From NCBI GenBank assembly GCA_020809425.1, contig JAGGDC010000003.1:1-64000 (forward strand): 64,000 nt of DNA, given 5' to 3'. Below, piece by piece: positions 4,059 to 31,565 of the stretch. The notes beneath the pieces were generated by a model. The model was not told the DNA's origin. It saw only the letters and a list, made by a program, of their open reading frames with translations, and did no database searches. This DNA comes from Candidatus Synoicihabitans palmerolidicus. Its GTDB lineage: Bacteria > Verrucomicrobiota > Verrucomicrobiia > Opitutales > Opitutaceae. The position numbers and the translations under genes were made by a program. Position 1 is the first letter of the stretch, and the number at the start of each line of letters is the position of its first letter.

Positions 4059-4122
4059 GACCTTGCCCTCCTCAAGACTTTCTATCGCAAAACCCGAACT
4101 CGTTCCTCTGCTTCGTCGGACA

Positions 4123-4157
4123 CGAAAAAGCCGCTCCACCAAAGGAGCGACTTTTTT
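4123..4157. terminator. Bidirectional intrinsic terminator downstream of clpC
   Basis: AAAAAGCCGCTCC and GGAGCGACTTTTT are paired arms around a 6-nt loop. The A tract on one side and the T tract on the other let it work in both directions. It lies 25 bp beyond the clpC stop codon, as expected for the end of the mcsA-mcsB-clpC operon. Confidence 0.85.
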
Positions 4158-4181
4158 GCATTAAGGGGGAAGTCGATGTGG

Positions 4182-6683
4182 TTACGTATTAACCTCGGTC
4201 TCGGCGTCGGCGAAAGCAAGGTTCTCTCCGTCACGGACCACTCGGACAAGGTTGCCGTCTTTCACTGTGCCTCTAATAATGGCTTCCGCCAGCGGGTCTT
4301 CCAAGTAGTGCTCCACGGCACGACGCAAGGGGCGCGCGCCGTATTTCTCGTCATAGCCCTTATCGATCAGCAACGACTTTGCTTCGTCGGTAAATTCCAA
4401 CGTGATCTTTCGGTCTGTCAGGCGATCGGCGAATTTTTTGACCTCGATTTCGACAATCTTCGTGAGATCCGATTTTCCGAGGGGGCGGAAGAAAACAATG
4501 TCCGAGATCCGATTAAGGAACTCCGGTTTGAAGACTTTCTTTGACTCCTCGAGTACCTTATCGCGCATCAACTCCATGTCGCTGAAGCTGCCCGTCGCTG
4601 CCGCGAATCCCATGGAGGTCTGTCGCTGCAATAACGTAACTCCCACATTGGACGTCATAATAATGATCGTGTTTCGGAAGTCGACTTGGCGGCCAAGTGA
4701 ATCCGTAAGGCGGCCGTCTTCCAAGATTTGCAACAGAAGCTGCAATACGTCGGGGTGGGCCTTCTCGATTTCATCAAAGAGAATAACGGAATACGGCTTG
4801 CGCCGCACCGATTCGGTGAGCTGGCCGCCCTCCTCGTAGCCAACATAGCCAGGAGGCGAACCGACCAAACGCGATACCGCAAATTTCTCCATATACTCGC
4901 TCATGTCGATCTGCACGAGTGCGTCCTGGTTGCCAAACATCTGCGCTGCGAGTTGCTTGGCTGTTTCGGTTTTACCCACCCCGCTGGGGCCCACGAACAA
5001 GAAGGAACCAATCGGACGACGAGGGTCCTTGAGATCGGCTCGAGACCGACGAAGCGCGCGGGCAATCGCGGTTGCCGCGACCTCCTGACCAACCACCTTT
5101 TTCTGGATTTCGTTCTCCAGATTAAGCAGGCGTTCGGTCTCTTTCTTCTCCATTCGATTCAATGGGATGCCGGTCCAATCTGCGACCACATGCATCATCA
5201 TCTCTTCATCAATGGTGATTTTGTTTTCTTCGCGTTCCTTCTTCCAGCTCTCGGTAACTTCTTCTTGTTTGGTCCGAAGTTGTTTTTCGTTATCCCGGCA
5301 GCGTGCGGCCTCTTCGAAGTGTTGGCCTGCAATGGCTTCCTCTTTCTTGGCGCAAACTTCTTCGATTTGTTTGGCCAATTCTTCTATCTCCGGAGGCCGA
5401 TTAAGTGACGCAATCCGGGCGCGCGAACCCGCTTCATCCATCACATCAATCGCTTTGTCGGGCAGGAAACGTCCGGTAATGTAACGATCCGAAAGCTTCG
5501 CGGCCGTCTCTAAGGAAAGGTCAGTGAATATTGCTTTGTGGTGATCCTCATACTTGCCACGGATGCCCTGCAAAATGGTGACCGTGTCCTCAACTGACGG
5601 TGGCTCGACCTTCACCGACTGGAAGCGGCGATCCAAGGCACTGTCCTTTTCAATGTACTTGCGATACTCGTTGAGAGTGGTCGCACCGATGCACTGCAAC
5701 TCGCCGCGAGATAGCGAAGGCTTGAAGATATTGGATGCGTCCATGGCACCTTCGGCCGCTCCAGCGCCCACGATTGTGTGCAGTTCATCGATGAACACAA
5801 TGATGTTCTTGGACCGTTTGATCTCGTCCATGACGGCTTTGATCCGTTCCTCAAATTGCCCGCGGTATTTGGTCCCCGCCACCATGAGGGCGAGATCAAG
5901 GGTGATGACCTTCTTGTCGATTAACAACTCAGGGACAATGCCACCGTAAATTTCTTGGGCGAGGCCTTCCACGATCGCGGTCTTGCCCACCCCTGCTTCG
6001 CCGATGAGCACAGGATTGTTCTTCGTACGTCGACAGAGGATTTGCACCACTCGCCGAATTTCGTGTTTCCGCCCGACCACGGGATCCAATTCACCCTTGC
6101 GGGCCAGTTCCGTGAGGTCGCGTCCGAACGCTTTGAGCGCAGGAGTCTTGACGTCCTTCTTGTCATCACCACCTCCACCACGAGAAGATGGAGCCGCTGC
6201 TTCCTCCGCGCCGGGGTCATTCTCGCCTCCCGAAAACTGGGGATCCAGTTCGCGCAAGATTTCGTTGCGAGTGCGCTCGATATCTATGTCGAGAGACTTC
6301 AAAACGCGGGCGGCGACGCCCTCTCCTTCGCGCAACAAGCCGAGTAGAATATGCTCGGTACCCACATAGGAGTGATTCAAGGCTTTGGCTTCCTTGCCGG
6401 CCAGCGCCAGGACCTTTTTAACCCGAGGGGTGTAAGGAATACTGCCTTGAATTTTCGATTCGGTGCCGGTGCCGACTTGTTTTTCAACCGCGCCACGCAC
6501 GGTCTCCAAATCAAGACCCATTTTCTGGAGCACGCTGACCGCCACGCCTTGGCCAAGTTTGATCAGGCCAAGCAGGATGTGCTCCGTTCCAACATAGTTG
6601 TGATTAAATCTATCGGCCTCTTTCCTCGCCAAAGCGATGACCTGTTGGGCTCGGGGAGTGAAATTATTCATGGGCTCGGACAT
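4182..6683 (-). CDS. clpC: ATP-dependent Clp protease ATP-binding subunit ClpC
   Basis: 833-residue Hsp100 unfoldase that feeds proteins to ClpP. It has two N-terminal Clp_N repeats ([11 protein letters not shown] occurs twice within the first about 120 residues). The first AAA+ module has Walker [16 protein letters not shown] and [10 protein letters not shown]. The short middle domain carries a UVR-type motif ([16 protein letters not shown]), typical of ClpC rather than ClpB. The second AAA+ module has Walker [10 protein letters not shown]. Length and motifs are complete. It is the last gene of the mcsA-mcsB-clpC operon, 18 bp after mcsB. The family pattern is that McsB-phosphorylated proteins are ClpCP substrates. 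It is one of the few long genes here with no lesion. Confidence 0.97.
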
Positions 6684-21614: not shown

Positions 21615-21637
21615 ATTTTAACCATATTGGTTAAAAT
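21615..21637. promoter_or_regulatory. Palindromic operator-like site 1 (TTAACCA-TAT-TGGTTAA)
   Basis: ATTTTAACCA-TAT-TGGTTAAAAT is a perfect 10-bp-arm palindrome upstream of the glyoxalase-like pseudogene. It matches sites at 27.4-28.1 kb around the HTH gene. Confidence 0.7.
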
Positions 21638-27428: not shown

Positions 27429-27443
27429 TAACCAATACGGTTA
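27429..27443. promoter_or_regulatory. Operator-like site 2 (TAACC-AATAC-GGTTA)
   Basis: Same core as sites 1 and 3: inverted TAACC/GGTTA with 5-nt spacing, about 185 bp upstream of the HTH gene. Confidence 0.6.
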
Positions 27444-27548
27444 CTTTTTCCGCAAAAAATTTCCTCCCGCCAACGCCAAACCGCATCCGCCCCTCCCACC
27501 CCGCGCCCCCCGATCCACGTCCCACACGCCCCCTCCTATCTTCAACTT

Positions 27549-27567
27549 TTTAACCAATACGGTTAAA
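27549..27567. promoter_or_regulatory. Operator-like site 3 (TTTAACC-AATAC-GGTTAAA)
   Basis: Seven-bp perfect arms around AATAC, 60 bp upstream of the HTH start, where a promoter would be expected. Confidence 0.7.
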
Positions 27568-27597
27568 CTCCCTGCAAGAATCCTCCGCCTCACCGCG

Positions 27598-27619
27598 TTT
27601 AAATCCAAAACGGTTAAAA
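27598..27619. promoter_or_regulatory. Operator-like site 4 (degenerate left half)
   Basis: TTTAAATCC-AAAAC-GGTTAAAAC keeps the right half site exactly and a weak left half. It ends seven bases before the HTH start codon, overlapping the ribosome-binding region. Confidence 0.55.
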
Positions 27620-27626
27620 CGAACTC

Positions 27627-28001
27627 ATGGACACCTTGCCTCCCCCACCCCTTCATCCGCGGCTCAAGACGCTTATTCGCACCGGAGAGTCTATCATCAC
27701 CGCTGCCCAACTCGCCGAGGAACTCATTCGCAAGGCGCGCCGAAAACGACGCCCTTACCACACTGTTCCCAAACGTCACCCCGGCTCCGACACCCCGATG
27801 TGGAATGCCGTCGTCGCCTCCCTCCGCATCGAACTCACCGCACACAGGAACAAAACCCGCCTCGCTCGCTACTTGGGCCTGCCGCCGCAACGCATTTTCG
27901 ACTACGTTCGCGGACGCCGCCGTCTGCCCGATACTGAGACCCTGCTGCTAATCCTCCATTGGATCAGTGAACGCCACGCCGGCCGCGACCCCTCCCTCTA
28001 A
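27627..28001 (+). CDS. Small HTH DNA-binding protein, candidate autoregulator
   Basis: 124 residues. The C-terminal half NKTRLARYLGLPPQRIFDYV-RGRRRLPDTETLLLILHWI reads as a Cro/CI-like helix-turn-helix. The N-terminal half is basic (IRKARRKRRPYHTVPKRHP) with a conserved-looking PMWNAVVASLRIELTAHRNK link. I do not know a named family. It sits among four of the five TTAACC-N5-GGTTAA palindromes, two directly upstream and one just downstream before dus. Binding of these sites by its own product is inferred. The frame is intact although both neighbours are broken. Confidence 0.7.
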   Translation: MDTLPPPPLHPRLKTLIRTGESIITAAQLAEELIRKARRKRRPYHTVPKRHPGSDTPMWNAVVASLRIELTAHRNKTRLARYLGLPPQRIFDYVRGRRRLPDTETLLLILHWISERHAGRDPSL

Positions 28002-28047
28002 ACCCAGCGCCGCTCGCCGTCCTTCCGAAGAGCTATGCCTGGCTCGA

Positions 28048-28070
28048 TTTTATAACCATATTGGTTAAAA
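28048..28070. promoter_or_regulatory. Operator-like site 5 upstream of dus
   Basis: TTTATAACCA-TAT-TGGTTAAAAA shares the core of site 1 exactly (TAACCATATTGGTTA) and lies about 55 bp upstream of the dus start. Confidence 0.65.
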
Positions 28071-28123: not shown

Positions 28124-29231
28124 ATGCGGATCGGTCCGATCGAACTCTCATCGGCTCTCTTTGTGTCGCCATTGGCCGGATACACCAATTTGCCCATGCG
28201 CCGTATCGTGCGTGAGCTTGGCGGACTCGGTTGGGCCACCACCAACCTCGTCAATGCTCGCTCGCTTATCGAGCAAAACCGCACCGCCCTCAAACTCGTC
28301 GCCTCTTCGCCCGCCGACCGCCCCCTAGCCATTCAACTCTTTGGCGCCGTCCCCGAGGAAATGCGCGACGCCGCCATCATCTGTCAGGAACTCGGCGCCT
28401 AATCCGTTGACATCAACATGGGTTGCCCCGTGCGCAAGGTCGTCAACGTCGGCGGCGGCTCCGCCATGATGACCGAGCTCTCCAAAACCGCTGCCCTCGT
28501 CCGCGGCATGATCGACGCCGTGACCATCCCAATCACCGAAAAAATGCGCCTCGGTTGGGATGAACAGAATCTCACCGCCCCCGACCTCGCCTGCACCCTC
28601 GAAGATGCCGGTATCGCCGCCGTCTTTGTCCATGGCCGCACCCGCGCCCAAGGTTTCGCCGGCCGTGTCAACCTCGCCGGCATCCGCTCGGTCGTCGAAG
28701 CCGTCAAAACAATCCCCGTCATCGGCAACGGTGACGTCACCCCCCCCGACGCCGCCCGCCACATGCTCGCCGAGACCGGCTGCACCGGCGTCAGCATCGG
28801 CCGCGGAGCCTTCTACGATCCCTGGATCTTCAAACGCACCGCGCACTACCTTGCCACCAACGAACTCCTCCCCGAACCCGACTTTGCCTAACGCATCCGC
28901 GTTCTCCGTCGCCATTTCACCGCTACGTCGAGTTCTACGGCGAAGCCCACGGCGCCAAGTTCTTCCGCAAAGTCGCCCCTTGGTATGCCCACCGTTTCGG
29001 TCCCTCCAAACCGTTCAAACGCGAGATCATCCGCATCAACTCCCGCGCTGATTTCGAAAAAACCCTCGGCGACTATATCGCCTGGCGCACCCAATTCTGC
29101 GACGACGACGGCCCCTGCTCCCCAAGTACGCTCCCGACTCCATGATCGCCTCCTTCCAACGCGAAGCCGACGATCCCGTTTTCCAACGCGAGTCCATCCC
29201 GGGCCCCAAGGGTCGGGTCGATACTTGGTAG
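28124..29231 (+). pseudogene. tRNA-dihydrouridine synthase, at least four lesions
   Basis: FMN enzyme reducing uridines in tRNA. LFVSPLAGYTNLPMRRIVRE, then TAA at 28400-28402 in GA-stop-SVDINMGCPVRKVVN, then GNGDVTPPDAARHMLAETGC and GVSIGRGAFYDPWIF. TAA at 28889-28891, a shift near 28920 (RRHF|HRYVEFYGEAHGAKFF) and another near 29105, after which LPKYAPDSMIASFQREADDP ends at 29231. DusB-like by its NMGCP motif. The catalytic Cys region is not obvious. Confidence 0.85.
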
Positions 29232-29289
29232 GCACCAAGGACTGGCTAAGAACGTGAACCCACTTTCGCCAGCGTTCACGTCCCTCGCC

Positions 29290-31565
<2,276 letters not shown>

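Follow-up and report, generated by a model that had tools for sequence, protein, structure and literature searches.

A Cro/C1-type HTH protein of Opitutaceae paired with near-invariant palindromes around its gene and across the chromosome

The window analyzed here is a 64,000-nucleotide stretch of the genome of Candidatus Synoicihabitans palmerolidicus (G000; 4.40 Mb, with marker counts indicating about 70% completeness). An intact open reading frame at 27627–28001 on the forward strand encodes a 124-amino-acid Cro/C1-type HTH protein (P0001). The preliminary description had pictured this frame as surviving amid decayed neighbors, and two neighboring genes are indeed broken: the dus-like gene (28124–28891) is split by an in-frame stop and a frameshift, and the clpB-like gene (29304–31339) is in several pieces. 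Over 28124–31339 the breakage stems either from genuine decay or from an assembly rich in errors. Opitutaceae are known to include a decaying symbiont, whose genome of 2.2–2.7 Mb sets it apart from the one studied here (PMC5698493).

The protein comprises an N-terminal helix (residues 11–40), an Arg-rich linker, and a Cro/C1-type HTH domain (residues 57–117), of which residues 75–110 matched Pfam HTH_3 (E 3.3e-5; 24.3 bits, against a cut-off of 23). Among 30 family members scanned with Pfam, HTH_3 was found in 16 and YdaS, at E ≤ 0.1, in 24. An AlphaFold2 model (pLDDT 79.7, pTM 0.55) showed a long N-terminal helix joined by a loose linker to a helical HTH domain; its helices span residues 11–40, 57–69, 75–83, 87–95, and 103–117. 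The recognition helix (27885–27911, forward strand) corresponds to residues 87–95, PQRIFDYVR; residue 87 is its first residue, and residues 87, 91, and 92 covary with palindrome bases. Searching the PDB with this model using Foldseek returned generic Cro/C1-type matches alone, none at E ≤ 0.001, with SinR, C.Esp1396I and other controller proteins, DdrO, and HigA2 among the weak matches. Pfam-type domain scans found no catalytic domain in the protein or its family, and a search for RNA elements around the gene gave no Rfam match. Within Pfam, NCBIfam, PHROGs, and PADLOC it held true that the protein has no named family: the matches there were to generic Cro/C1/YdaS-type HTH proteins, and the literature searched likewise yielded no family name.

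Palindromes of the form TAACC-N5-GGTTA lie on both sides of the gene. Two exact copies of TAACCAATACGGTTA stand upstream, at 27429–27443 and at 27551–27565 (the latter with AT-rich flanks, TTTT/AAA), and an exact copy of TAACCATATTGGTTA stands downstream, at 28053–28067, 51 nt past the stop codon. A degenerate proximal palindrome, AATCC-AAAAC-GGTTA, with two mismatches in its left arm, occupies 27602–27616; its center is 18 nt before the HTH ATG, a position at which close homologues carry a proximal site. A dispersed copy, with arms GATTTTAACCA and TGGTTAAAATC, lies at 21619–21633, with an MFS gene on one side and a glyoxalase-like gene on the other. Of the five sites with 5-nt spacing that had been described from the window, four are thus exact and the copy placed near 27598 is degenerate, and the coordinates given for them were off by a few bases at most. 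With one mismatch allowed, the window contained five matches to TAACC-N5-GGTTA against 0.52 expected, and none of 100 dinucleotide shuffles reached five. The genome-wide scan that the preliminary description had called for placed the motif far above background, with 33 sites in this genome compared to 3 for a reversed control pattern. Outside the 15-bp core, these sites have about four AT-rich bases, beyond which their flanks are unrelated.

Homologues of the HTH protein were present in 21 of 57 relatives and in none of the genomes examined outside Opitutaceae. A second scan covered GTDB with a single genome for each species (made with a profile of a tighter homologue set, the profile of all 30 homologues being too divergent); 56 of its 57 matches were labeled Verrucomicrobia, mostly Opitutaceae/Opitutia, one of them a MAG labeled Akkermansia muciniphila, and the remaining one was a weak match in Pseudobacter. 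The family is also present in a cultured, free-living member of Opitutaceae, IMCC26134 (CP011265, locus L293). Together with the 30 homologues found first, 56 from this second scan made 76 in total, 10 being common to both sets. In the second set, palindromes stood beside the gene in 50 of 56 cases (upstream in 48, downstream in 42, and on both sides in 40), in keeping with conservation of the motif around orthologues; the usual spots were 10–100 nt before the start and 4–60 nt after the stop. One homologue without palindromes, L294, had its matched frame interrupted by a stop codon. The palindromes followed a common pattern, T-N-A-N-N around an odd center, with gene-specific spellings that included TTTAACCATATTGGTTAAA, TGTCACCATTATGGTGACA, AAAGTAACCTAATAGGTTACTTT, TGTCACGTAATACGTGACA, and TTTCACGTAATACGTGAAA, among others. 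The orthologue keeps a constant place in the genus (aminotransferase, GNAT, HTH, dus, clpB), and the other paralogues had no neighbor in common.

Changes in the protein and in the palindrome went together. When residues were scored against half-site bases without supervision, the strongest signal was that of residue 87 and base −8 (z 11.9). Counted over the 76 homologues, R or K at residue 87 went with G at −8 in 62 of 62, and P or A with a non-G base in 6 of 6 (L025 was scored as A at −8, its genome's sites not being uniform there). K87 was accompanied by a purine at −9 in 15 of 15 homologues and R87 by T in 42 of 47, whereas at −6 H91 went with C (16 of 19) and Q91 with A (13 of 13); D92 was found mostly with CC, and E92 mostly with CG. 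On supported branches, residue 87 changed independently in two or three pairs, all as predicted and too few for significance, and over the traits there were two to four tree-independent pairs each, nearly all as predicted. The formal significance of the code is therefore limited by phylogeny, because tree-independent pairs are few. The spelling of the palindrome shifts together with the recognition helix; we therefore regard protein and palindrome as a cognate pair, and from this covariation it is nearly certain that the HTH family reads these palindromes. The earlier proposal of a regulator/operator-like pair is upheld in this sense, with palindromes that exceed background, surround orthologues, and vary along with the recognition helix; they can be explained without any LacI-type gene.

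The dispersed copies are numerous and almost identical to one another. The complete genome G001 (5.93 Mb) contained 41 exact GTAACCATAATGGTTAC sites, with only two one-mismatch sites besides center flips, as well as 25 exact sites of a second type that matched its second paralogue. The second pattern was matched exactly at 18 places in G003, and exact sites numbered 44 in the relative G006 and 30 in G005; overall, genomes carried about 25–50 copies, with 18–44 exact sites per specificity in relatives. A third type, TGTCACGTAATACGTGACA, was present at 8–34 copies in seven genomes, at six or fewer elsewhere, and at none in 20 genomes of other families; no cognate gene for it was identified in G003, G028, or G000. 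Most sites were extragenic, with 7 of 45 fetched G001 sites inside genes called by a simple caller run on short stretches. In local duplications, the core differed at 3 of 264 compared positions and the flanks at 102 of 718 (a figure inflated by indels), a difference between invariant core and diverged flanks that fits selection on the core. Local tandem arrays were found at L089 (G001, 2648303), L094 (G001, 3433492), and L105 (G003, 2022719), with units of 90, 124, and 270 bp, each unit having one palindrome whose center base sometimes flips between copies.

Sites also occupied the same places in different species under different spellings. G005 uses TTTAACCATATTGGTTAAA and G006 uses TGTCACCATTATGGTGACA, and flanking orthologues were common to both at 12 of 24 distinct G005 clusters, the HTH locus included (hypergeometric P below 1e-16, for the fetched G006 sites); further loci were common to G001 and G000. 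The flanks at shared loci were mostly unalignable, and the sites therefore outlast their surroundings. One such conserved place is the window's site at 21619, which had been linked to the glyoxalase-like gene. This site is probably more than an operator of that gene, since G006 has the differently spelled TGTCACCATTATGGTGACA 3′ of the MFS gene orthologous to the one beside it. Named by eye from sequence, with no profile search behind the names, the conserved flanks read as AsnRS, CysRS, HemB, FabF, RecQ, RpsA, Ndk, EF-P, IPP isomerase, and a TonB receptor; on this reading, the genes flanking the sites appear functionally unrelated.

Cognate pairing, gene flanking, dispersal, near-invariance, lack of promoter bias, and positional conservation with changed spelling are all computed properties of this system. 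As to mechanism, the Cro/C1-type protein most likely binds, presumably as a dimer, the 17–23 bp palindrome flanking its gene, and from the position of the proximal upstream site (−18 from the ATG) it is likely that the protein represses its own expression. It would also bind the roughly 25–50 near-identical intergenic copies over the whole chromosome, which would act as selected landmarks (nucleoprotein sites that organize, bridge, or insulate) and not as operators serving a metabolic regulon, with paralogues, each with its own recognition helix, serving separate, non-overlapping site populations. Our best overall reading, to which we would give about even chances, is a self-regulated, site-specific, chromosome-wide DNA-binding system (organizer or insulator) that is neither a promoter regulon nor part of REP/RAYT. 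The exactness of the sites, their extragenic position in all gap types, the apparently unrelated neighbors, and the conserved, re-spelled places argue for a chromosome-level role over a metabolic regulon. Against this reading, the family is patchy (the 21 of 57 relatives) and multiplies into paralogues, which would be odd for a housekeeping organizer, and the even chromosomal spread is unlike what an origin- or terminus-type organizer would predict. In G001 the spread was compatible with uniform for both site types (KS p 0.86 and 0.30), with no concentration anywhere, and we accordingly rejected a terminus or origin organizer.

The system resembles MatP-matS of E. coli in joining a small site-specific DNA-binding protein to tens of short palindromic chromosomal sites. 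However, matS sites occur only within the 800-kb Ter domain (PMC3330122), whereas the sites here are chromosome-wide, the protein has an HTH fold, and a genome has several paralogue/site pairs. The exact dispersed palindromes, one of them near the cognate gene, also recall ParB-parS and Noc-NBS, but no ParB/CTPase domain or par operon is present and the sites are not clustered in one region; a Pfam scan of the HTH family found no ParB family match, and the gene stands alone, with dus and GNAT as neighbors. With Cro/C1 (XRE) repressors (lambda/434, SinR, restriction-modification controllers, HigA), the protein has in common the HTH fold (Pfam HTH_3), a palindrome of similar length, and an autoregulatory upstream position. 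It differs from them in having a C-terminal HTH, an Arg-rich linker, and a long N-terminal helix, in sites that flank the gene on both sides and recur as tens of extragenic copies, and in the lack of a toxin, phage, or restriction partner gene.

A classical autoregulated global transcription factor, for which the dispersed sites would be operators of a broad mixed regulon and their conserved positions conserved regulation, is a rather doubtful alternative, although nearly all homologues have sites before their own gene and the Cro/C1 fold is mostly regulatory. Three species have conserved sites upstream of hemB and in the gap that separates asnS from an alcohol dehydrogenase gene, and regulation of some genes is possible because some conserved sites lie 50–160 nt before starts (hemB, asnS). 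Yet the gaps with a site (35 codirectional, 18 convergent, 15 divergent) showed no bias toward promoter-bearing types over those without one (24, 12, and 18, respectively): divergent gaps were not enriched and convergent gaps not depleted, and three of the loci shared by G005 and G006 were convergent (Ndk/WYL, L138/L264, and MFS/YhhQ). Moreover, the sites are exact without a degenerate tail, unlike those of graded regulons, and the functions of the flanking genes appear unrelated. The regulon that had been suggested is not supported in its simple form, given no promoter-gap bias, apparently unrelated flanking genes, and sites that also lie downstream of the HTH gene.

We consider it unlikely that the palindromes are REPIN-like selfish repeats, that is, mobile hairpins that the HTH protein keeps or helps to spread, with mobility supplied in trans (e.g., by a RAYT). 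Like RAYT genes, which are flanked by REPs (PMC3116915), the HTH gene is a small gene flanked by its own palindromes, dispersed extragenic copies exist, and each of several palindrome families per genome is tied to one paralogue. At ten fetched places in G033, the palindromes formed inverted doublets 47–48 bp apart whose spacer, CCCCTCTGAAAGTCCCCGGG, is conserved, and G013 carried 46/55/46 arrays; both forms suggest spread as mobile repeats. The outer arms of a site paired beyond the core more than shuffled arms or the arms of other copies did in G006, G005, and partly G001, for which either hairpin selection or template-switch correction would do. Opitutus terrae is rich in GTAG REPs (PMC3733652), and Y1 transposases are common in the genomes studied here. 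However, palindromes were found at none of 20 Y1 (PF01797) loci, compared to 22 of 30 HTH loci with the same filter; the GTAG tag accompanied 3 of 197 sites and CGTC was at control level; and the HTH protein has no HUH/Y1 or other catalytic domain. We therefore rejected REP/RAYT membership, retaining the idea as a competing account of how the copies became dispersed. In addition, G000, G001, G005, and G006 have their palindromes as single copies or local arrays, and the singles of G001, G005, and G006 have unique flanks, near-invariant cores, and kept positions, whereas REP singlets decay (PMC3116915). The patchiness, the multiplication of paralogues, and the G033 doublets nevertheless leave room for a partly selfish element.

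Equally improbable in our estimation is a transcription roadblock or insulator, in which the bound protein would halt polymerase at the borders of genes, on the 5′ and 3′ sides of its own and within convergent gaps. Sites do occur in every gap type, convergent ones included, and right after the HTH stop codon, but with only 25–50 sites per genome most gene borders lack one.

We also rejected an origin from a phage, prophage, or plasmid (IMG/VR, a phage collection, and PLSDB contained no relatives), a toxin-antitoxin (YdaS/HigA-like) or defense partner (no conserved toxin gene, no common neighbor of the paralogues, and no PADLOC match), and intrinsic terminators (the palindromes are not GC-rich stems with a U-run, and the one terminator-like hairpin, directly before the downstream site, is at chance level).

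With somewhat less than an even chance, the Opitutaceae Cro-type members may form an undescribed chromosome-organizing or insulating system, each owning a near-invariant, genome-wide palindrome set that is re-spelled in place with the recognition helix, and in some lineages spreading as transposase-less, REPIN-like doublets. One syntenic gene offers a natural series of specificity changes, with dozens of sites per genome re-spelled in step at conserved places. The system thereby makes the co-change of a protein with its many sites, and the role of such sites in a bacterial chromosome, directly testable; it makes the protein-DNA code of a Cro-type HTH readable and provides a possible organizer in a phylum with none of that kind described, as far as the literature searched goes.

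Repeated doublets and arrays with a CAGAGGG-like spacer in G033 and G013 (L165–L184) are a candidate new miniature repeat family of Opitutaceae; AGAGGG was nearby at 18 of 22 sites in G033 and 9 of 33 in G013. Y1/IS200-like transposase genes are abundant (18 matches in G001 and 49 in G056) and unconnected with the palindromes where checked. In G000, a second paralogue (C1:1986066–1986427; locus L225, ~4067–4428) has decayed through a frameshift or stop, with TTGTAACGTANTACGTTACAA still on both sides. A further palindrome class, TTTGTCACGTATTACGTGACAAA, occurs at 13 places in G000 (e.g., C1:391517, C1:519912, and C5:362016), and no cognate HTH for it was found in that genome. Finally, two pairs of G000 sites, C1:519912/532443 and C1:753127/765659, lie about 12.5 kb apart with identical flanks, suggesting that a segment of 12.5 kb or more was recently duplicated.
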